A DNA stretch of 40,528 bases from Bacteroidales bacterium (GTDB lineage Bacteria; Bacteroidota; Bacteroidia; Bacteroidales; JAADJA01), in contig JAGQVF010000125.1 of NCBI GenBank assembly GCA_020438135.1, positions 1 to 40,528 on the forward strand, written 5' to 3'. The notes below the pieces were generated by a model. It had not been told where the DNA came from. It worked only from the letters and a program-made list of their open reading frames with translations, and made no database searches. The position numbers and the translations under genes are program-made. This document shows positions 2,006-40,528 of this stretch, one piece after another (within the stretch, counting starts at the first letter, position 1; each line of letters begins with the position of its first letter).

Positions 2006-4249
2006 ATGAAGCGTCTGTTTACCCTTTTTGTACTTTTTAATTTTACAGTATTTCTCTCAATGGCCCAACTTCCAGAGAGTTTTGGAGATTTAATCAATTC
2101 GGTAGATCTGGGAAGTCAGACACCAACCCCTGACCGCTCAATTACCGGTATTCAATATGCCAATGGTAATCTTTGGGTTACAGGTTTCGATCCGGATGAT
2201 TACTGGCAACATAAGCTGTACAAATTTTCGGGTGATGGAACCGAGCTTCTCGAAACTTTCAGCTATGGTGTTGAAGCCGCCGGATGGCATGACATGGCAT
2301 GGGACGGTGAATTTTTATATGTTGCAGATATGCAGGTCGTTCGACAGATTGATCCGGCCAATGGTCAAAAAACCGGGGTAACCATTCCTGCTCCGTTCTA
2401 TTACAATCGCGGACTAGCTTACAATCCCTTTTCCGATCACTTTTATATAGTCGGAGAAGGTGGATTTAATATTTATGAGATCGACAGAGATGGAAACATT
2501 GTCGGGGCGATTGCAAACCCGGTAGGTCATTATGCTGTTGGCCTTGCTGTGGATACAATATCCCCCGGAGGACCCTTCCTGTGGGCTTATTCAAATATCG
2601 AAGAAGGATATAACCTGGTATTGGTTGCCAAACAATATTCGCTTCAAACCAACCAGTTTACCGGTATTCAATTCAATGGTGCTTCCATTTCGAATATTAT
2701 TGCTGAAAGGGCGGGTGGAGCAACAATCAGGTATAACGAAAATAGCGAAACACTGGAACTGATCACCATTAATATCCGCAATGGAAGCTCACAGGATCAG
2801 TACGAATATGCAATGTTTTATGATATTACAAGGGATGAAATTCCGGGACCTCAAATCCTGGTAAATCCCGGATCGATACAAAACACTGTTCAAACAGGAG
2901 ATTCAATTGATGTAAATGTGGACATTATGAATGATGGTGATGCAACTCTATTTTGGTCGGCATATATTGAGACTCCGGATCAGGATACCATCAACAATCT
3001 GGGTGACCTTTTGTCGTCGGTTAATCTCACACAGCAATCAGGAAATGATGATCGTGGCATAAAAGGGATCACCTACCTGGATAATAAAATCTGGATCAAT
3101 GGCAGGAATTATTCTCAGAATCAACCAACCATTTATGAGTTTGATAACGCCGGCAATTTGCTTGCTTCACATCCTTATTTTAGTTTAAACGGCATTGGAT
3201 TTTTCAGCATAACCTCTGATGGAGAATATTTATACGGAGAGGACACCTACACGATCATGCAGATTGATCCTGTAAACTTTCAGGTTGTGGATAATATCAT
3301 CAAGCCTAGCGGATCTTTCAGCGATATGACTTATGATCCGCAAACCGATCATTTTTGGGGTGGTAATTCAAACGGTCTAATTTACGAATTTGATCGTGAT
3401 GGTGAGGTTGTCAATGAATTTGTAACAAACTTAGCTATCAAGGGGTTGGCCTGGGATCAATGGTCGCCGGGCGGTCCATTCCTTTGGGCCTGGATTGAAG
3501 TGATGGACGGAGATGAAGTAATCGGTATTGATGCGGTACGGTTGAATCCACACACCTGCACACCTGCCGGTAACGGATTTGCCGGTGTTGCATTTAGCAA
3601 TGACACGCTATTTACCGATACACCCAACGGAATTGTTATTACCAGCGCACTTGAAAACAATAATGTATCATTGCTCGGATTGCATAACGCAGGACAAGTA
3701 AATGGTTCGGATACCATTTCCGGTACAGATTTTATGGCGGTTTATGATCTGGATGTTGTACCTCCCCCCGGATGGATCAAATTACTGGATACATCCTATG
3801 GTGAGATCACTGCAGGGCAGTCTGAACAATTCACAGTAAGATTACTCTCTTTAATGGAAGATACAGTAATGACTGCAAATATCCGGATTTCGAACAACGA
3901 CATTGAAAATTCCGAGTGGGTAATACCCGTATCATTCGAAATGACCAACGATTTCATCTCTGCAACTACAGATTTAGACGGATCCAGAAGTGAGGCACTC
4001 GGACAGAATTATCCGAATCCTTTTGTGCAATCAACTGTTATTCCTGTGTATTTGAAAAAATCGATGTATGTTAACCTGTCGGTTTTTGATCAGTACGGAA
4101 GATTGGTTGACCGGACTTTCAGCGGTTACCTTCCCGAAGGAGCTCATCATCTGCAGGCTCAATTGCCTGATTTGCCGGATGGAATCTATTACTATACATT
4201 ACAGTCAGAGAAGGAACAATTCACCAAAAGAATGGTGATCAAAAAATAA
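2006..4249 (+). CDS. T9SS-exported protein with a duplicated propeller-like domain
   Basis: 747 aa. A signal peptide (MKRLFTLFVLFNFTVFLSMAQ) leads into two copies of one domain, at about 27-280 and 326-585. Each copy opens with a related motif (DLINSVDLGSQ against DLLSSVNLTQQ) and then a GI-Y--N-LW--G pattern, and each contains an SPGGPFLWA motif near its end, consistent with beta-propeller blades. Short beta-sandwich-like linkers follow each copy (ILVNPGSIQNTVQTGDSI from about 283; PPPGWIKLLDTSYGEITAG from about 586). The C-terminus from residue 665 (LGQNYPNPF ... DGIYYYTLQSEKE) is a typical type A T9SS sorting domain, so the protein should be exported across the outer membrane and anchored or released. 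No catalytic motif was recognised; a binding or adhesive surface role is possible. The ATG at 2006 gives the complete signal peptide. Confidence 0.85.
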   Translation: MKRLFTLFVLFNFTVFLSMAQLPESFGDLINSVDLGSQTPTPDRSITGIQYANGNLWVTGFDPDDYWQHKLYKFSGDGTELLETFSYGVEAAGWHDMAWDGEFLYVADMQVVRQIDPANGQKTGVTIPAPFYYNRGLAYNPFSDHFYIVGEGGFNIYEIDRDGNIVGAIANPVGHYAVGLAVDTISPGGPFLWAYSNIEEGYNLVLVAKQYSLQTNQFTGIQFNGASISNIIAERAGGATIRYNENSETLELITINIRNGSSQDQYEYAMFYDITRDEIPGPQILVNPGSIQNTVQTGDSIDVNVDIMNDGDATLFWSAYIETPDQDTINNLGDLLSSVNLTQQSGNDDRGIKGITYLDNKIWINGRNYSQNQPTIYEFDNAGNLLASHPYFSLNGIGFFSITSDGEYLYGEDTYTIMQIDPVNFQVVDNIIKPSGSFSDMTYDPQTDHFWGGNSNGLIYEFDRDGEVVNEFVTNLAIKGLAWDQWSPGGPFLWAWIEVMDGDEVIGIDAVRLNPHTCTPAGNGFAGVAFSNDTLFTDTPNGIVITSALENNNVSLLGLHNAGQVNGSDTISGTDFMAVYDLDVVPPPGWIKLLDTSYGEITAGQSEQFTVRLLSLMEDTVMTANIRISNNDIENSEWVIPVSFEMTNDFISATTDLDGSRSEALGQNYPNPFVQSTVIPVYLKKSMYVNLSVFDQYGRLVDRTFSGYLPEGAHHLQAQLPDLPDGIYYYTLQSEKEQFTKRMVIKK

Positions 4250-32250: not shown

Positions 32251-33777
32251 TTATTCACCAAGGCTGCCTATAAGGGATTCAACCGCTTCAAGAATTTCGC
32301 ACGATTTTACAAGGGTTTTCATTTTATTATGATCATCGTAAAGCGGGCGGTCAATATCGAGAAATTCCACATGCTTTCTTACCACCTCTTTGGCTTTTGT
32401 TACTCCTTTACCAAAATTATATTCCCTGAAATCGAGTGCCTGTGCGGCCGCCATAATTTCTATACCCAGGATACCATAGGCATTGTCGAGGATCTGAAAA
32501 TTCTTGAGAGCAGTATTCATGCCCATCGAAACAAAATCCTCCTGATCAGCTGCTGCCGGAATACTTTGAATAGAAGCCGGGGTTGAAAGGATACGTTGTT
32601 CCACGATTTGCATATCAGCGGTATACTGACTCAGCATCAGCCCTGAGAACATACCTGCACCTTTTGTAAGAAAAGCCGGAAGACCAACACTGAGTGCAGG
32701 ATTATTTAACCTATTCATACGGCGTTCCGACATTACGCTCACCATGGTGATGGCTGCACCGGCCATATCCATCGGCAATGAAACGGGAGTTCCCTGGAAA
32801 TTGGCTCCCGACAACTGCATATTTTCTTCCGGGAAAAAGATCGGGTTGTCTCCTACCCCATTCAGTTCAATTTCTACCTGCGACTTAGCGTAGGCCAGGG
32901 CATCATGTGCAGCACCGACCACCTGTGGAGTAGAGCGCATCGAATAGGCATCCTGTACCTTGCATTTTATTTTGCCTTCTTTCAGATCTCCTCCTGATAC
33001 CATCTTATTAATGGCATTAGCGCTTCTTACGGCTCCTTTAAAACCGCGAACCTCATGCAATCTGGAAGTATAAGGTTTCATGTTGGCCTTAAGTGCCTCG
33101 AGCGACATCGATGCGGCAATCTCAGCCTGTTTCAGCCAACGGTCGGCATCATACAGGAAAATGGCACTCATGGCTGTCAACACATTGGAACCATTGATGG
33201 TGGCCAGTCCGTCGCGGGCCTGAAGACCAGGAATTGGAATACCAGCTTTTTCGAAAGCCTCTTTACCACTCATGATTTCTCCCTTGTAAAAAGCCTTGCC
33301 TTCGCCCATCATCAACAGTGCGATTTGCGACATTGGGGCCAAATCACCTGAAGCCCCTACCGATCCTTTCGTGCAAACCCATGGAGTTACCCCTTTATTA
33401 AGCATATCAACAAGGGTTTGGGTGATCTCGGGCCGAACACCCGAATTGCCGTGTGCATGCACATTGGCCCTGCCCAGCATGGCTCCCCTCACCCACTCTT
33501 CAGGCATGGGATCACCAATACCGGCAGCATGGTTATAAATTAAATATTTTTGAAAATCCTTCACCTGATCGTCGGTGAGAACAACTTCAGAAAATTCACC
33601 AATGCCGGTATTTACACCATACATGATCTCATGTGCTTCGATCTTTTTTTCGAGCATGGCACGGCATTTTTTAATCCTTTCAATCGCCTGCGGATCGAGT
33701 TCAACTTTTTGGTGATGCCGTGCTACATTCACAACATCCCCGATGGTCAGGTCCTTACCTTTTATTATATAAGTCAT
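32251..33777 (-). CDS. hutH: MIO-dependent aromatic amino acid ammonia-lyase, probably histidine ammonia-lyase
   Basis: 508 aa, the usual length. The Ala-Ser-Gly triad that cyclises to the MIO cofactor is at 142-144 (GSVGASGDLAPMSQIAL). Active-site Tyr53 is in MYGVNTGIG, and LATINGSN and SMRSTPQVVG are also present. Substrate clues: residues 82-83 are Asn-His (LIYNHAAG), keeping the His found at position 83 of classical HutH, and Glu413 in DQEDFVSMG matches the QED of histidine lyases, where many Tyr/Phe lyases have NQD. This favours L-histidine to urocanate, but Asn82 in place of Ser is atypical. No hutU, hutI or hutG is in the window. It is followed by two small membrane proteins and is divergent from the thioredoxin gene. 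Confidence 0.87.
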   Translation of the reverse strand: MTYIIKGKDLTIGDVVNVARHHQKVELDPQAIERIKKCRAMLEKKIEAHEIMYGVNTGIGEFSEVVLTDDQVKDFQKYLIYNHAAGIGDPMPEEWVRGAMLGRANVHAHGNSGVRPEITQTLVDMLNKGVTPWVCTKGSVGASGDLAPMSQIALLMMGEGKAFYKGEIMSGKEAFEKAGIPIPGLQARDGLATINGSNVLTAMSAIFLYDADRWLKQAEIAASMSLEALKANMKPYTSRLHEVRGFKGAVRSANAINKMVSGGDLKEGKIKCKVQDAYSMRSTPQVVGAAHDALAYAKSQVEIELNGVGDNPIFFPEENMQLSGANFQGTPVSLPMDMAGAAITMVSVMSERRMNRLNNPALSVGLPAFLTKGAGMFSGLMLSQYTADMQIVEQRILSTPASIQSIPAAADQEDFVSMGMNTALKNFQILDNAYGILGIEIMAAAQALDFREYNFGKGVTKAKEVVRKHVEFLDIDRPLYDDHNKMKTLVKSCEILEAVESLIGSLGE

Positions 33778-33970: not shown

Positions 33971-34318
33971 ATGTTAAATAATTCACAAAAGTTCGAAAAA
34001 GCCGATGATCTCTCACAGGTAAAGCAAACCATAGGAAATAATACCGGGGTGCTGGTCTATTTCTACAACGATGACTGTCCGCCTTGCATCAGCTTGCGTC
34101 CGAAGGTAAATGAATTGCTTGAGAATCAATTTCCATTGATGAAAATGGTTTTTGCGGATTCGAAACAACATCCCGATATTCCTGCTGCCTACCAGGTATT
34201 TTCAAATCCCACTATCCTGGTATTTTTTGAGGGGAAGGAATTTAAACGTTTCAGCAAATATATATCCATTCCTGAATTGTCACTATCAATTGAACGTATT
34301 TACAAGTTGGCCTTTTAA
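33971..34318 (+). CDS. Thioredoxin-fold protein with CPPC active site
   Basis: 115 aa, thioredoxin-sized, with no signal peptide, so probably cytoplasmic. The redox motif is Cys36-Pro-Pro-Cys39 in VYFYNDDCPPCISL, and the cis-proline follows in FSNPTILVFFEGKEF (about 77-91). Classical thioredoxin has WCGPC; here the Trp is Asp and the second position is Pro, which should shift redox potential and partner choice. Related CPPC proteins occur in Bacteroidota. No dedicated reductase is adjacent. The next gene, 132 nt downstream, may share the transcript that ends at 34862. Confidence 0.85.
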   Translation: MLNNSQKFEKADDLSQVKQTIGNNTGVLVYFYNDDCPPCISLRPKVNELLENQFPLMKMVFADSKQHPDIPAAYQVFSNPTILVFFEGKEFKRFSKYISIPELSLSIERIYKLAF

Positions 34319-34450: not shown

Positions 34451-34846
34451 ATGAAGACACTGTGCGTCAATATCGGGTCGGGACTGCTGATTACATGCAT
34501 CCTGACCCTATTGATTTTCGCAGTGAATTTGGGTGAAGTTCGCTACCTCGAAGAAAAAATACTGAATGAATACATTCCGTCGCTCACGCATAAAACATTA
34601 CATATCATTTTTGGAGTGCAGGATGAAACAACAAATAAAAGCATTAAAGATCAACAAACGAACGCTACAAAAAACAAGCAGGGAAATCTTCTCACAAAGG
34701 CCACGGTAACGGATGCTCCAGCCATGGAATCGGTGATCCGTGGGTTCCGGAATTTTTTCATAACATTCCCACTCTTACTATTCATGATCATTTTTATTTT
34801 CGGATACGTCGATGTGAGGAAGATCGCGAACCGGCCCCTTCTCTGA
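34451..34846 (+). CDS. Unrecognised small 2-TM protein
   Basis: 131 aa. Two hydrophobic segments (about 8-28 and 98-118) flank a polar loop rich in Asn, Lys, Thr and Gln (for example KSIKDQQTNATKNKQGN). With both ends short, a helical hairpin with the loop on the periplasmic side is plausible. No family recognised. Its last codons (ANRPLL, stop) form the left arm and loop of the transcription terminator at 34829-34862, which argues that the reading frame and its end are real. Confidence 0.65.
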   Translation: MKTLCVNIGSGLLITCILTLLIFAVNLGEVRYLEEKILNEYIPSLTHKTLHIIFGVQDETTNKSIKDQQTNATKNKQGNLLTKATVTDAPAMESVIRGFRNFFITFPLLLFMIIFIFGYVDVRKIANRPLL

Positions 34847-35009: not shown

Positions 35010-38000
35010 ATGAATACTCCTTCAGAAACCATTTCAATTATTGCTTCGAAAAAGACCGGCAGGTTGTTAAAAAAACACCTGGAAGATGTGCAACATCACT
35101 CCCGGGTATTGATAAAAAACCATGCTGATACAGGGAATTTAGGCGACCCTGATTTATTGATCATTGAATTAAAACAGGGCGTAAATGATATGATGGACCT
35201 TTTAAAAACAATTCATGATCAACTGAATGGCACCCCGGTATTGTTCATTGCTGACAAAACATCCATCCCTTCTTTTCCTGATGGGTCGGCAAACAGGCTG
35301 ATCTGCGATTTCCTGGATCTTTCCACAGAAAAACACTTGCTAACGAACAGAATTAAGAACCTGCTCATTGCAGGATCATTTAACCAGCAACGGAAAGATC
35401 AAGGTATTCCACACAATCAAAATGAGATCGACCGGCTGAGTGAAACCCTCAGGGAACGCACAGAGCAATTGGGGCACGAACTTAAAGATCACCTGCATAC
35501 AAGGTTCGCCCTTCAGGATAAAATAAAAAAGATAGACGAAGACAACCGTTTTCTTGAAGTGCTGATCGATACGATTCCAAATCCCGTTTTTATTAAGAAC
35601 AATGAACTTCAATATATTAAATGTAACAGCGCATTCAGAGAATTTCTGGAATTACCCATGGACAGGATTCTCGGGAAATCGGCATACGACCTGCTCGAAC
35701 CTGATCTGGCAGCCAACCTCAATAAAATAGATGAAGAAGTATTAGCAGACCAGCAGCCCAAAATTGTTGAAGGCTCCTATACGAAAAAGGACGGGTCGGT
35801 TATGTTTTACATGCTGTATAAAAATGTATTCAGAGATGAGAACTCCGGAGACCTTAAGTTGCTTGGCACTTTGGTAGATATTACCAGTATCAGAAGTACA
35901 CAAAAGCTGATCAAAGTTCAGCATACGATCGATTACCTCTCTTCTCTTAAAAAAGATATAAAACATGTATATGAAATTATCCTGAAGCAAATCGTTGAAT
36001 TTGACTGGGTCAGCGCCGGAGGTCTGTACATTCTGGATCATGAAAAAAATGTTCTTGAACTCCAGATGCAGGTAGGTTTACCGCAAACGTTTACTGAGAA
36101 AGCCCAAAAATATCATGCGGGCATGCCTCAATATGAATTTGTTATGAGCCGGAAAAAATATTTCGGATCTTACAAGGGTTTGCTTAGCGAGATGAACCAG
36201 CCAAATGTAAAACAACCCTTTGAGAAAGTGGCCATCATCCCGCTGATCGACAGCGATTCCGATTCGGTTTTGGGATGCCTGAACCTGGCATCAAATGAAA
36301 AGGTTAAAATGACACCGGAAGACAGGTTGCTTGTGGAATCACTCAGCAGCAGGCTGGCGGTTTTGCTTTCTTATGCACGTACACAGAAGGAACTCCGTGA
36401 ACTCACCAACCACCTTGAATCACGCGTTGAAAAACGCACACAGGAAGTTAAGGAGACAAATGAACAGTTGCTCAAAGAAATATCCTATCATACCGAAACC
36501 AGGAAAGCACTCGAGTTTTCGGAAACACTTTACAGGGGAATTTTTGAAAATGCCCAGGATGGTATCGTATTGTTTAACGCCGAAACCTTCGAACTGGTTG
36601 AAGCCAATCACAGAACCTATACCGAACTTGAATATACATTCGAAGAAATCGCCAATCTCAGTTATGCCGACTATGTGTTTTACGGTTCAGGACTTGATCC
36701 GGCTAAAATGATCAAAAAGCTTTTCGCTGAAGGTGCCATCTCCTTTGAAGCGAAGCACATGACCAAATCAGGGCAGGTTAAATACAGGATCATCAATGCC
36801 AAACTGATCGAAATGAGCGGAACCAGGTATATCCTTGGAAACGTTCACGACATCACTGAACTTACCCTCAAAGCTAACGAATTGCTTGATAGCCGTGAAA
36901 AGTACACACATTTGCAGGATAATTTACCCGTGGGCATTTTTATCACGCGACCCGGAGGCGAAATCGAATATGTAAATAAGGCAACTCTCAATATGTTTGG
37001 ATATGATACCTTTGAAGAATTCAAATCGAGGGAGGCGAGAGATCATTTCTTTAATAGTCGTGACAGGGATCAAATGGTTATAACCCTTGAAAAAGAAGGA
37101 AAGATTTCAAACTTTGAGTTCAAATTCAAAAAAAAGGGCAAGGGACATTTTTGGGGCTCTGTCAGCTTGATTGCCAGTTATGATAATGCCGGGAAATTGC
37201 TTCAGATTGAAGGAACGGTTGAAGACATTAGCATTCGTAAACTTGCTGAAAGAGAACTCAGGAAGAAAAACAGAGAGATCATCGACATCAATAAAACACT
37301 CGAAAAAAGAATTGCTGAAGCAATAAAAGATCAGCAGAAAAACCAAAACTATTTGTTGAATAAATCAAAACTCGAATCGCTGGGTGAACTGGCAGCCGGC
37401 ATTGCACATGAAATCAACCAGCCGCTGGGGATCATGTCGCTCACTTTCGAAAACCTGCAGAAAAAATTCAATGCAAACACGATCGACAGCGCATACCTTG
37501 AAGAAAAGGTCAGTTCCATTCTCGGCAACATCGACAGAATACGCGATATCATCAATCACATCCGTATCTTTTCGCGCGAACAGGATGCCATCATTCTGCA
37601 AAAGGTAAATATCAATGCGGTGATACATGATGTTACCAAACTCATCAAAACCCAGTATCAAAATCATAACATAACCCTTTCACTCGATCTTTATGAAAAA
37701 ATCGGATTCACCATCGGCAGCAAACTAAAATTTGAACAGGTGCTTTTAAACCTTCTGTCGAACGCTAAATTTGCAGTGGATGAAAACGAATTTTTTCTTT
37801 CAGAAACCGACTTCAAAAAAAATATCTGGATCAGAACATACATTCAAAACAACAAGATCAAACTCGAAGTGGAAGATAACGGTATCGGGATACCACCATC
37901 GAAACTCGACAAAATATTCGATCCGTTTTATACCACAAAACCGGAATGGGTCGGAACCGGATTGGGATTATCAATCGTATATGGTATTGTTAAAGAAATG

Positions 38001-38084
38001 CACGGAGATATAAAAGTGCACAGTGAAGAAAAAAAATATACACGATTTGAAATAATTTTTCCCAGATTTCCTGAAAATGAGTAA
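35010..38084 (+). CDS. Cytoplasmic multi-sensor histidine kinase (receiver-like, PAS, GAF, PAS, PAS, HisKA, HATPase)
   Basis: 1024 aa without membrane segments. N-terminal region about 1-115 has receiver-like pattern (PDLLIIELKQ, TPVLFIADKT, DFLDLSTEKHL) but the acceptor Asp is Glu and no KP motif remains, so it looks degenerate. Then a coiled coil (about 130-175), PAS 1 (about 178-300), GAF (about 305-455), coiled coil, PAS 2 (about 505-620), PAS 3 (about 635-750), coiled coil and kinase core. The phosphoacceptor is His800 in GIAHEINQP. ATP-binding motifs: Asn918 in LLSNAKFAVDE, DNGIGIPPS, and GTGLGLSIVYG. It should autophosphorylate and pass phosphate to Asp54 of the regulator encoded 35 nt downstream. 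PAS/GAF ligands cannot be predicted. Confidence 0.93.
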   Translation: MNTPSETISIIASKKTGRLLKKHLEDVQHHSRVLIKNHADTGNLGDPDLLIIELKQGVNDMMDLLKTIHDQLNGTPVLFIADKTSIPSFPDGSANRLICDFLDLSTEKHLLTNRIKNLLIAGSFNQQRKDQGIPHNQNEIDRLSETLRERTEQLGHELKDHLHTRFALQDKIKKIDEDNRFLEVLIDTIPNPVFIKNNELQYIKCNSAFREFLELPMDRILGKSAYDLLEPDLAANLNKIDEEVLADQQPKIVEGSYTKKDGSVMFYMLYKNVFRDENSGDLKLLGTLVDITSIRSTQKLIKVQHTIDYLSSLKKDIKHVYEIILKQIVEFDWVSAGGLYILDHEKNVLELQMQVGLPQTFTEKAQKYHAGMPQYEFVMSRKKYFGSYKGLLSEMNQPNVKQPFEKVAIIPLIDSDSDSVLGCLNLASNEKVKMTPEDRLLVESLSSRLAVLLSYARTQKELRELTNHLESRVEKRTQEVKETNEQLLKEISYHTETRKALEFSETLYRGIFENAQDGIVLFNAETFELVEANHRTYTELEYTFEEIANLSYADYVFYGSGLDPAKMIKKLFAEGAISFEAKHMTKSGQVKYRIINAKLIEMSGTRYILGNVHDITELTLKANELLDSREKYTHLQDNLPVGIFITRPGGEIEYVNKATLNMFGYDTFEEFKSREARDHFFNSRDRDQMVITLEKEGKISNFEFKFKKKGKGHFWGSVSLIASYDNAGKLLQIEGTVEDISIRKLAERELRKKNREIIDINKTLEKRIAEAIKDQQKNQNYLLNKSKLESLGELAAGIAHEINQPLGIMSLTFENLQKKFNANTIDSAYLEEKVSSILGNIDRIRDIINHIRIFSREQDAIILQKVNINAVIHDVTKLIKTQYQNHNITLSLDLYEKIGFTIGSKLKFEQVLLNLLSNAKFAVDENEFFLSETDFKKNIWIRTYIQNNKIKLEVEDNGIGIPPSKLDKIFDPFYTTKPEWVGTGLGLSIVYGIVKEMHGDIKVHSEEKKYTRFEIIFPRFPENE

Positions 38085-38119: not shown

Positions 38120-39472
38120 ATGCGAAGCCAAAATGTACTTATTTTAGATGATGAGAAAGGGTTCAGGGATGAGATCGGTGATTTTCTATCGGATGAAGGT
38201 TTTCATGTAGTTTCCGCAGGCATGCCTTCGGAGGCTGTAAAACTTATGGAAACCGATAAAATTGATATCGGGCTCTTCGATGTGCGACTTCCGGAGCGAG
38301 ATGGCATCGATCTGCTCGGAGAAGTAAAAAAGAAATATCCCAACATGGAGATCATCGTCATGACCGGATTCGGTGATATGGCCACGGTGATCAGAGCAAT
38401 GCGATCGGGGGCTTCTGATTTTCTGAGCAAACCTTTCAAACTCAATGAAATCAAAGAAACCATCGAGAGGGTATCCAAATACCAGCGCATTAAATCATAT
38501 CATCATCTTAACGATAGCACCAACCAATCCCCTGTAGAAGGATTGATCGGTTCGAGCGATGCCATTAAAAATGTTTACAAACAACTTTCGCAGGTCGCCA
38601 AAGCCGATGATGCAACTGTTTTGTTCACAGGCGAAAGCGGAACCGGTAAAGAACTGATGGCACGCATCCTGCACAGCTTAAGTAAACGAAGTGGTAAAAC
38701 TTTCCTGCCGGTTAACTGCTCTACCATTCCGGATGAATTGTTTGAAAACGAATTTTTTGGCCACACAAAGGGCTCCTTTACCGACGCTAAAACCGACCAG
38801 GTAGGGATTTTTGAAGCAGCCGACAACGGGACTCTTTTCCTGGATGAAATCGGTGAAATGAAATACACCATTCAGGCAAAACTGCTCCGCGTGATCGAAG
38901 ATAAAAGCGTGAGCCGGATAGGAACACACAAGGATAAAAAAATCAATGTTCGGATACTGGCAGCCACCAACCAGGATCTGCAAAAGATGATCGAAAACAA
39001 AACCTTCAGGGCCGACCTGTTTCACAGGCTCAATATCCTGAATATACAGATGCCTCCCCTGCGCGAACACAAGGAAGATATTCCCGAACTATTTGACCAC
39101 TTCACACAGTTTTACATTAAAAAACTTGACAAGGAGATCAAAAGGATAGACAGGAATATTTTGCCAGCACTGCAGAAATATAATTTCCCGGGTAATGTAA
39201 GAGAGTTGAAAAACATGATTGAAAGAGCTGTGATCATGTGCGACTCGGAAATCCTCACCATGGATTGTTTCAATAACCTCGATCTGTTGATCAATGAAAA
39301 CAAATATGCAGATTCTACCATCGGAAATTACCTGAGTTTGCCGGCCATCGAAAGAGAGGCCATCGTCAAAGCACTCCACCGTTCGAAAAATAATAAATCC
39401 AAAGCTGCAAAAATGTTGAGCATCTCCAGGCAGGCGCTTGACCGTAAAATGCAGAAATACGGAATTAATTAG
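38120..39472 (+). CDS. NtrC-family sigma-54-dependent response regulator
   Basis: 450 aa. The receiver (about 4-118) has acidic pair Asp10-Asp11, phosphoacceptor Asp54 (LFDVRLPERDG), Thr in VMTGFG and Lys104 in LSKPF. The AAA+ domain (about 140-375) has Walker A GESGTGKE at 171-178, Walker B TLFLDEIG (about 238), and R-finger region FRADLFHRL. The sigma-54 contact loop, normally GAFTGA, reads GSFTDA at 218-223. The C-terminal Fis-type helix-turn-helix is SKAAKMLSISRQALDRKM (about 427-444). A purine-rich AAGGA lies 4 nt before the ATG, unusual in this phylum. Located 35 nt after the kinase gene, so they form a two-component pair. Its targets are unknown; it activates RNA polymerase with RpoN if the altered loop is functional. 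Confidence 0.94.
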   Translation: MRSQNVLILDDEKGFRDEIGDFLSDEGFHVVSAGMPSEAVKLMETDKIDIGLFDVRLPERDGIDLLGEVKKKYPNMEIIVMTGFGDMATVIRAMRSGASDFLSKPFKLNEIKETIERVSKYQRIKSYHHLNDSTNQSPVEGLIGSSDAIKNVYKQLSQVAKADDATVLFTGESGTGKELMARILHSLSKRSGKTFLPVNCSTIPDELFENEFFGHTKGSFTDAKTDQVGIFEAADNGTLFLDEIGEMKYTIQAKLLRVIEDKSVSRIGTHKDKKINVRILAATNQDLQKMIENKTFRADLFHRLNILNIQMPPLREHKEDIPELFDHFTQFYIKKLDKEIKRIDRNILPALQKYNFPGNVRELKNMIERAVIMCDSEILTMDCFNNLDLLINENKYADSTIGNYLSLPAIEREAIVKALHRSKNNKSKAAKMLSISRQALDRKMQKYGIN

Positions 39473-39800
39473 AGCAATACTGCATCTTACAATTTTTCAT
39501 ATATACCATTTTAGTATATTTACACTGCACACAATGCACATTATATAAGCATTTCATAAATCCTGAATTTCGCCTTGCCCGGAAACGGGCAAATGACCAT
39601 TTTCGGTCGTTATTTACATAACAACCCTATACACCTGTTTACAAGCCTTTTATAAAATACAAATAAAAGAGGCCTGTTTTATTCCATAACACATACGGGT
39701 TCCATCCATACTAATACATATCACTCTCTATCTGATAGTTACAAATATGGCAAAGGTCTTGCATAAGGAATGATCGCCCAAGCGCCAACTCTTAACCATC
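39473..39800. other. Structured intergenic region between the regulator and the degenerate receiver
   Basis: 328 bp without a credible gene. It holds two adjacent hairpins (39575-39611), an AT-rich element AATAAAA-gaggcctg-TTTTATT (39662-39683), and TATATTTA (39515-39522), a poor match to a -7 element. The region could be a regulator 3' end plus a long leader for the gene at 39801. A short open frame at 39770-39967 lies in another frame and is not credible. Confidence 0.5.
39575..39611 (+). other. Two tandem hairpins, the first with a GAAA tetraloop
   Basis: TTGCCCG-GAAA-CGGGCAA (39575-39592) is a perfect 7-bp stem closed by a GNRA tetraloop. Sharing one base, AATGACC-attttc-GGTCGTT (39592-39611) forms a second 7-bp stem with one G-T pair. 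No strong T-tract follows either. It may be an RNA structural element, a weak terminator or a small RNA. Confidence 0.45.
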
Positions 39801-40151
39801 ATGAACATCTTAATACAAATCAGAGAACAATCAGCGGATCGGGAAATCCGCGAGTTCACAGAAGCCGATGGAAACCAGGTTTTCATCTCACACTCAACCG
39901 CAGAATCTATCGGTTATCTCAGTGCAGAGATGATCGATCAGGCAGTGATCAGCTTAAAGCATATTAATGATGCTGCCATACTGAAATACCTCAGCGAATA
40001 CTACCCCGACATAAAAATTGTGGTGATAGCCGATAAAAAAGTAACTGACATTCTCTCTCTTTTTCAACAGGTTGAATTTACCGTTATTCATGAGCCTTTA
40101 AGGTTATCCGATTTAAAAAAGCAGCTTGAAAAAAAACTGACGCTTCAGTAA
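39801..40151 (+). CDS. Stand-alone degenerate receiver-domain protein
   Basis: 116 aa. It aligns over its length to the receiver of the regulator encoded at 38120: gapless through the first 53 or so residues (NILIQIREQSADREIREF against NVLILDDEKGFRDEIGDF), then with a 2-residue shorter beta3-alpha3 loop. The phosphorylation machinery is gone: the acidic pair Asp10-Asp11 corresponds to Ile7-Arg8, the acceptor Asp54 to Ser51, the Thr of VMTG to Ala77 (VVIADKK), and Lys104 to Glu98 (HEPL). Fold-determining hydrophobic positions and the helix ahead of the C-terminus are kept. It probably cannot be phosphorylated and could bind the kinase, the regulator or the kinase's own degenerate N-terminal receiver (inference). 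It starts 328 nt after the regulator, on the same strand. No DNA-binding or output domain. Confidence 0.78.
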   Translation: MNILIQIREQSADREIREFTEADGNQVFISHSTAESIGYLSAEMIDQAVISLKHINDAAILKYLSEYYPDIKIVVIADKKVTDILSLFQQVEFTVIHEPLRLSDLKKQLEKKLTLQ

Positions 40152-40511: not shown

Positions 40512-40528
40512 ATGAAAAAGCAAATTTT
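40512..40528 (+). CDS. Start of a further gene, cut by the window end
   Basis: ATG at 40512 opens a frame reading MKKQI before the window ends. An AT-rich leader precedes it, and MKK-type beginnings often introduce signal peptides in this phylum. Only five full codons are visible, so identity cannot be given and the start itself is tentative. Confidence 0.4.

Follow-up and report, generated by a model that had tools for sequence, protein, structure and literature searches.

What does a receiver domain do once it has lost its phosphorylation site and stands beside a kinase and a regulator that has kept its own? The question is raised by a 40,528-nucleotide (nt) stretch of DNA from a Bacteroidales bacterium (GenBank assembly GCA_020438135.1, contig JAGQVF010000125.1; hereafter the window), near the end of which a protein of 116 amino acids (aa), which we call SM (39801–40151, + strand, ATG start), is encoded downstream of a sensor histidine kinase and an NtrC-type response regulator. 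We find that SM is a dead receiver maintained by purifying selection. It is inherited together with one kind of kinase–regulator pair and positioned behind a conserved palindrome and a σ54-type element. An initial annotation of the window had offered adaptor, decoy or phosphate-independent modulator as roles for SM; phosphate-independent modulator remains the best idea, and a feedback role is supported by the topology of the locus as read from sequence.

SM is a receiver without an active site

Orthologues of SM are present in six further genomes of the genus, at 41–63% identity, and the proportion of nonsynonymous differences (pN) is far below that of synonymous differences (pS) in every SM pair (e.g., pN 0.25 versus pS 0.90 between the window and genome G001). 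SM is therefore a real gene and not a chance open reading frame (ORF). Neither Pfam nor NCBIfam classifies the protein, and the Pfam Response_reg model does not match it. A profile of the SM family, however, matches receivers in the Protein Data Bank (PDB), the best being Aquifex NtrC1 (1zy2; E = 1.6e-10). Modeled alone by AlphaFold2 (AF2) from 13 homologues, SM is predicted with good confidence (predicted local distance difference test [pLDDT] 85; predicted template modeling score [pTM] 0.79) to fold into five strands and five helices arranged as in a receiver. The model matches receivers with Foldseek template modeling (TM) scores of 0.74–0.85 and, in a separate comparison, with Z 15–17.

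The modeled fold is thus that of a five-stranded, five-helix receiver, but the phosphorylatable catalytic set (an acidic pair, the acceptor Asp, Thr or Ser, and Lys) is absent. This makes SM a pseudo-receiver, or aspartate-less receiver, as the term is used for receiver homologues without at least one active-site residue. Alignment to the receiver of the regulator at 38120 bears out, residue for residue, the losses listed in the initial annotation: Ile7-Arg8 stand in place of Asp10-Asp11, Ser51 in place of Asp54, Ala77 in place of Thr82 and Glu98 in place of Lys104, leaving the window's SM without any of the five active-site residues. That this alignment runs almost without gaps is nearly right, but SM is two residues shorter in the β3-α3 loop and one residue shorter in the β4-α4 loop, losses common to all 13 SM homologues. 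Across the family the acceptor position is occupied by S, N, R or Y and never by D; the acidic pair is absent and the Lys replaced (mostly by Glu) in 13 of 13, and the Thr/Ser is lost in 11. All 13 partner regulators keep the acidic pair, the Asp and the Lys.

Origin and distribution of the SM family

SM is found in seven genomes of its genus, the window's included. When 393 genomes of the order were searched with a profile, copies outside the genus came up in G062 and G171 (family f47), G254 (f32), G125 (f110), and G284 and G350 (f75), for a total of 13 SM homologues in five Bacteroidales families; the copy in G254 loses its C terminus at a contig end. A separate sample of 395 genomes across the phylum, searched at E 1e-10, matched NtrC-type regulators only, besides the window's own SM, and the family therefore seems limited to Bacteroidales at this sampling. 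Named records in public collections that match SM are Bacteroidales or Bacteroidetes metagenome-assembled genomes. A further copy, in G099, sits at the edge of a contig and is interrupted in frame: at locus L077 (1–360) an SM-like frame with an in-frame TAA precedes a secreted-protein-like start that contains a stop as well, reflecting either decay or sequencing error. Short repeats (ACGGTAGG and CGACCAT units) occur in runs on both sides of SM in G062 (L033, 1–225 and 546–803).

The initial annotation had taken the adjacent regulator for the apparent parent of SM by local duplication, a history that neither the receiver tree nor the identity matrix supports as a recent event. SM proteins form one clade (bootstrap 99; Shimodaira–Hasegawa-like approximate likelihood ratio test [SH-aLRT] 98) outside all 63 sampled NtrC-type receivers, with long branches that leave the exact root unsure. 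Nor is SM closer to its own neighbor's receiver (mean identity 20.3%) than to the receivers of other SM partners (20.2%) or to unlinked NtrC-type receivers (20.9%). As judged from these comparisons, the family is one old, fast-evolving clade, which may have arisen long ago from an NtrC-type receiver.

SM travels with one kind of kinase–regulator pair

The partners of SM in the window are a cytoplasmic-type histidine kinase of 1024 aa (35010–38084, +; Pfam PAS, GAF_2, HisKA and HATPase_c) and the response regulator (38120–39472, +; Pfam Response_reg, Sigma54_activat and HTH_8). The kinase consists of a degenerate receiver-like N terminus, PAS and GAF domains, HisKA with the motif HEINQP, and HATPase. 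The regulator joins a canonical receiver (Asp-Asp pair, Asp54, Thr82, Lys104) to a σ54-interaction AAA+ domain and a Fis-type helix-turn-helix, and is by this composition an NtrC-family σ54 activator.

In each of the 13 loci, across the five families, SM lies 3′ of such a kinase and regulator in the same orientation, and the HisKA motif is HEINQP in every SM-linked kinase whose motif was read. Gene order is kept even in G284 and G350, where extra ORFs intervene between regulator and SM. Within the genus, every regulator at least 54% identical to the window's adjoins SM, except in G012, whose contig extends only 346 nt beyond the regulator. In a tree of full-length regulators, 12 of the 13 SM partners group as a single clade (SH-aLRT 97), with the long-branched G350 outside, and SM distances correlate with receiver distances (r = 0.89; 0 of 5000 permutations as high). 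The proposed partnership is thus supported, because all 13 SM genes follow the same kind of pair and all but one of the partner regulators belong to a single clade: kinase, regulator and small receiver stay together, no homologue retains the acceptor Asp, and none with readable neighbors is found away from such a pair.

The receiver-like domain that the initial annotation saw at the start of the kinase is a more qualified case. The first ~130 residues (35010–35409, +) are modeled by AF2 at a pLDDT of only 68 and their Foldseek matches are mostly receivers, but the domain is not constant across loci. Its acceptor position, aligned by eye, is Glu in the window, Tyr in G008 and G014, and Gln in G005, and the G008 copy is the sole one that Pfam recognizes as a receiver. 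G171 and G284 have shorter kinases, whose first PAS domain starts within about 55 residues, and the N-terminal domain is therefore not a constant partner of SM. Kinase N termini evolve fast in several loci (window 35010–35409; L028, 5681–6100; L029, 6066–6479; L030, 1–420).

A putative σ54 promoter between regulator and SM

Each of the 13 gaps separating regulator from SM contains a match to TGCCCG-N4-CGGGCA with at most two mismatches; for 12 of them, none of 200 dinucleotide shuffles gave a match as good. The palindrome lies 125–263 bp 5′ of SM (432 bp in G350) and stays on the SM side of the gap in G284 and G350. In the window it reads TGCCCGGAAACGGGCA (39576–39591) and is followed by a second palindrome, GACCATTTTCGGTC (39595–39608), 18 bp away from center to center; tandem sites with this spacing recur in nine loci (the seven of the genus, G254 and G350), one copy being weak in G014. 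The window's genome contains the exact site once and the tandem pattern (at most two mismatches) once, both at the SM locus. The sole exact site in G125 and in G171 is also at SM, and in G015 one exact site falls within a gene away from SM. A wider regulon was considered and set aside: of the other palindrome matches, seven were examined across four genomes, and all fall inside unrelated genes. Four near-identical short inverted repeats (AATCCCACGACTAAAGTCGTGGGCTATTT) lie 5′ of the palindrome in the G350 gap (L075, about 3660–3890).

Between palindrome and SM, 35–61 bp before the start codon, a scan with shuffled controls detected a σ54-type −24/−12 element in 11 of 13 loci; in the window it is TGGCAAAGGTCTTGCA (39748–39763, +). 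The window's genome encodes σ54. The vegetative −7 motif of Bacteroidetes, TAnnTTTG, was sought in all regulator–SM gaps and found in none. We infer that the palindrome is the regulator's putative enhancer and that SM heads its target transcript.

Paralogous kinase–NtrC pairs (e.g., G000, contig C271; G005, contig C41) have no adjoining SM and no palindrome of this type nearby. A second, SM-free pair recurs in the genus (L101, 7936–10664; L102, 7282–10014; L103, 7662–10379; L106, 7250–10000), with a short kinase and a regulator 46–48% identical to the window's, in a conserved neighborhood with a ribosomal-protein-like ORF (MSKHELLQFVED...) on one side and a secreted protein of ~570 aa on the other. 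This pair offers a natural control for SM function.

Giant secreted proteins follow SM

In nine of the ten loci where the contig permits judgment, SM is followed, in some cases after a short ORF, by a gene for a very large protein that appears to carry a signal peptide (G001, G005, G008, G013, G014, G015, G171, G284 and G350). The contigs of G062 and G254 end too soon to judge. The window itself ends with its contig 17 nt into a probable next gene (40512–40528, +; ATGAAAAAGCAAATTTT, MKKQI...), which may be the same giant gene, as the giants start at an equivalent place in other loci. Domains in these proteins include PKD-like, YDG/MBG, right-handed β-helix, DUF1349, DUF2341 and SprB repeats. 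Por_Secre_tail type IX sorting tails are present in two complete giants (L029 and L073); the other scanned giants are cut by contig or stretch ends. Only 20–50 nt separate SM from the next secreted ORF in G013, G014, G015 and G171, spacings that suggest an operon there. Taken together, the operator, the σ54-type element and the giant gene therefore make SM the predicted first gene of the regulator's target operon and not a member of the kinase–regulator operon. All three features had been missed in the initial annotation.

The giants of close species have strongly different domain content, and L073 has two in a row (L027, 3962–6995; L028, 10859–16019; L029, 11862–18488; L073, 8799–18001; L074, 9453–19001). 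It is as if the SM locus swaps surface proteins under one promoter.

Candidate functions of SM

A dead receiver always beside one pair, behind what appears to be that regulator's own promoter and usually before a giant gene, probably serves the pathway as a built-in brake. In the scheme we propose, the PAS/GAF kinase would phosphorylate the NtrC-type regulator, which would bind the palindrome or palindromes about 200 bp upstream and drive RNA polymerase–σ54 at the −24/−12 promoter. The resulting transcript would encode SM first and then, in most species, the giant secreted surface protein. SM, which retains the receiver fold and its kinase-facing side (α1, the β5-α5 loop and α5) but is unable to take phosphate, would accumulate and most likely dock on the transmitter domain of its cognate kinase and block autophosphorylation, a loop that would cap the output of a costly giant protein. 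Binding of the regulator to its operator, co-transcription, docking of SM on the kinase and the inhibitory sign are each predicted steps. We give an even chance to SM being the feedback arm, a stoichiometric antikinase, of a dedicated σ54 switch with essentially one target.

The kinase as the docking partner is suggested by the distribution of constraint. Compared with the partner regulators, SM shows far lower conservation in the catalytic loops (20% versus 95% for β1-α1; 15% versus 78% for β3-α3) and lower conservation in α4 (37% versus 58%), α4-β5 (32% versus 75%) and β5 (39% versus 64%). Conservation of α1 is somewhat lower in SM (37% versus 48%), whereas α5 (47% versus 34%) and α3 (47% versus 42%) are higher, and β2 and α2 are equal or higher within the genus. 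In complexes of kinases with receivers, α1, the β5-α5 loop and α5 face the kinase. The pattern leans toward docking of SM on the kinase over docking on the regulator.

Several points weigh against this antikinase model. The conservation argument is indirect and draws on 13 sequences; the −12 element is imperfect in several loci (GA for GC), and single σ54-type matches are not all significant; and the effect of SM on the pathway could be positive rather than inhibitory.

SM might instead pair with the regulator's receiver and block, or stabilize, the active AAA+ assembly, placing the feedback downstream of the phosphorylation step. The linkage and promoter evidence fits such an arrangement too, and the closest fold and profile relatives of SM are NtrC-type receivers. 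However, NtrC-family receivers dimerize through their α4-β5 face (PMC12632262), and it is there that SM shows its largest drop in conservation outside the catalytic loops; we consider regulator binding unlikely. We are similarly doubtful that SM serves the cargo, as a cytoplasmic partner in the synthesis, export or quality control of the giant that is co-expressed because both are needed. The near-constant presence of a giant after SM, at close range in four genomes, would suit this role, as would the restriction of the giant's N-terminal domain, within the genus, to positions 3′ of SM. The locus in G125, however, has the pair, the palindrome and SM with no giant gene after it, which argues that SM serves the signaling pair rather than the cargo, and the giants vary widely between species while SM and the pair stay the same. 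Finally, that SM is a decaying receiver without function is hardly credible: its fast evolution, missing active site and the stop-bearing copy in G099 could be read this way, but a pN far below pS in all pairs, the conserved promoter region and an open frame of one old origin retained in 13 genomes of five families largely refute a pseudogene, which we reject.

Flanking genes

Upstream of the module, the window encodes an ammonia-lyase-like protein (32251–33777, −; ASGDLAP motif, read by eye), a thioredoxin-like protein (33971–34318, +; Pfam) and a small unclassified protein (34451–34846, +). None of these neighbors shows any sign of module membership.

Relation to known receiver-like inhibitors

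An open-access literature search returned FixT, Osp and reviews of pseudo-receivers, with no account of the SM locus. FixT, a single-domain receiver-like protein that is not phosphorylated, inhibits autophosphorylation of FixL and is upregulated by FixLJ, closing a negative feedback loop (PMC7078487). Osp, likewise a single-domain receiver-like protein, works unphosphorylated to inhibit CckA and is activated by CtrA (PMC9430884). Absence of the two acidic residues has been noted for both (PMC9430884). SM resembles the two in its predicted logic and in fold. With FixT of Sinorhizobium meliloti and Caulobacter it shares anatomy (a stand-alone protein without the acidic pair) and predicted circuit topology. 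FixT, however, belongs to the FixLJ system of Alphaproteobacteria, and its Caulobacter form has a four-Cys motif, whereas the window's SM contains no Cys and the family is tied to a σ54 activator and giant secreted proteins; inhibition by SM is a prediction. Osp of Rhodobacter sphaeroides is also stand-alone and without the two acidic residues, but its acceptor position is still an Asp (D51), where SM has none, and it targets the hybrid kinase of the CtrA phosphorelay. Its gene is transcribed alone and away from the kinase, whereas the SM gene lies 3′ of its pair.

Among pseudo-receivers at large (PMC4395418, PMC12632262), SM shows constraint in α2 and α3, the regions to which a 2025 review points. 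Most of the cases described there are fused to output domains, whereas SM stands alone, with a fixed kinase–regulator partner and behind that regulator's predicted promoter. NtrC-type systems such as NtrBC, ZraSR and the PEP-CTERM pair PrsK/PrsR have in common with the SM locus the regulator architecture, the upstream palindromes (here mostly at 125–263 bp) and the −24/−12 element; the SM locus differs in having a dead receiver as the product of its first target gene and a predicted regulon of essentially one operon. Tentatively, and a little short of even confidence, we propose that these parts make up an undescribed Bacteroidales module: a PAS/GAF kinase, an NtrC-type regulator, a pseudo-receiver antikinase that arose once and is the first product of a single-target σ54 promoter, and a variable giant protein, which together would be an independent reinvention of FixT/Osp feedback.

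How pseudo-receivers are controlled and how they act has been described as a major unknown (2025 review; PMC12632262). The SM family provides a clean test case, as a stand-alone pseudo-receiver with one fixed partner pair that occurs in many natural variants and has a predicted regulon of very small size. Should SM prove to be an antikinase, feedback inhibitors of the receiver-like type would have evolved outside the Alphaproteobacteria, the home of both precedents found. The module would also connect σ54 control with the giant surface proteins, probably adhesive ones, of uncultured Bacteroidales.
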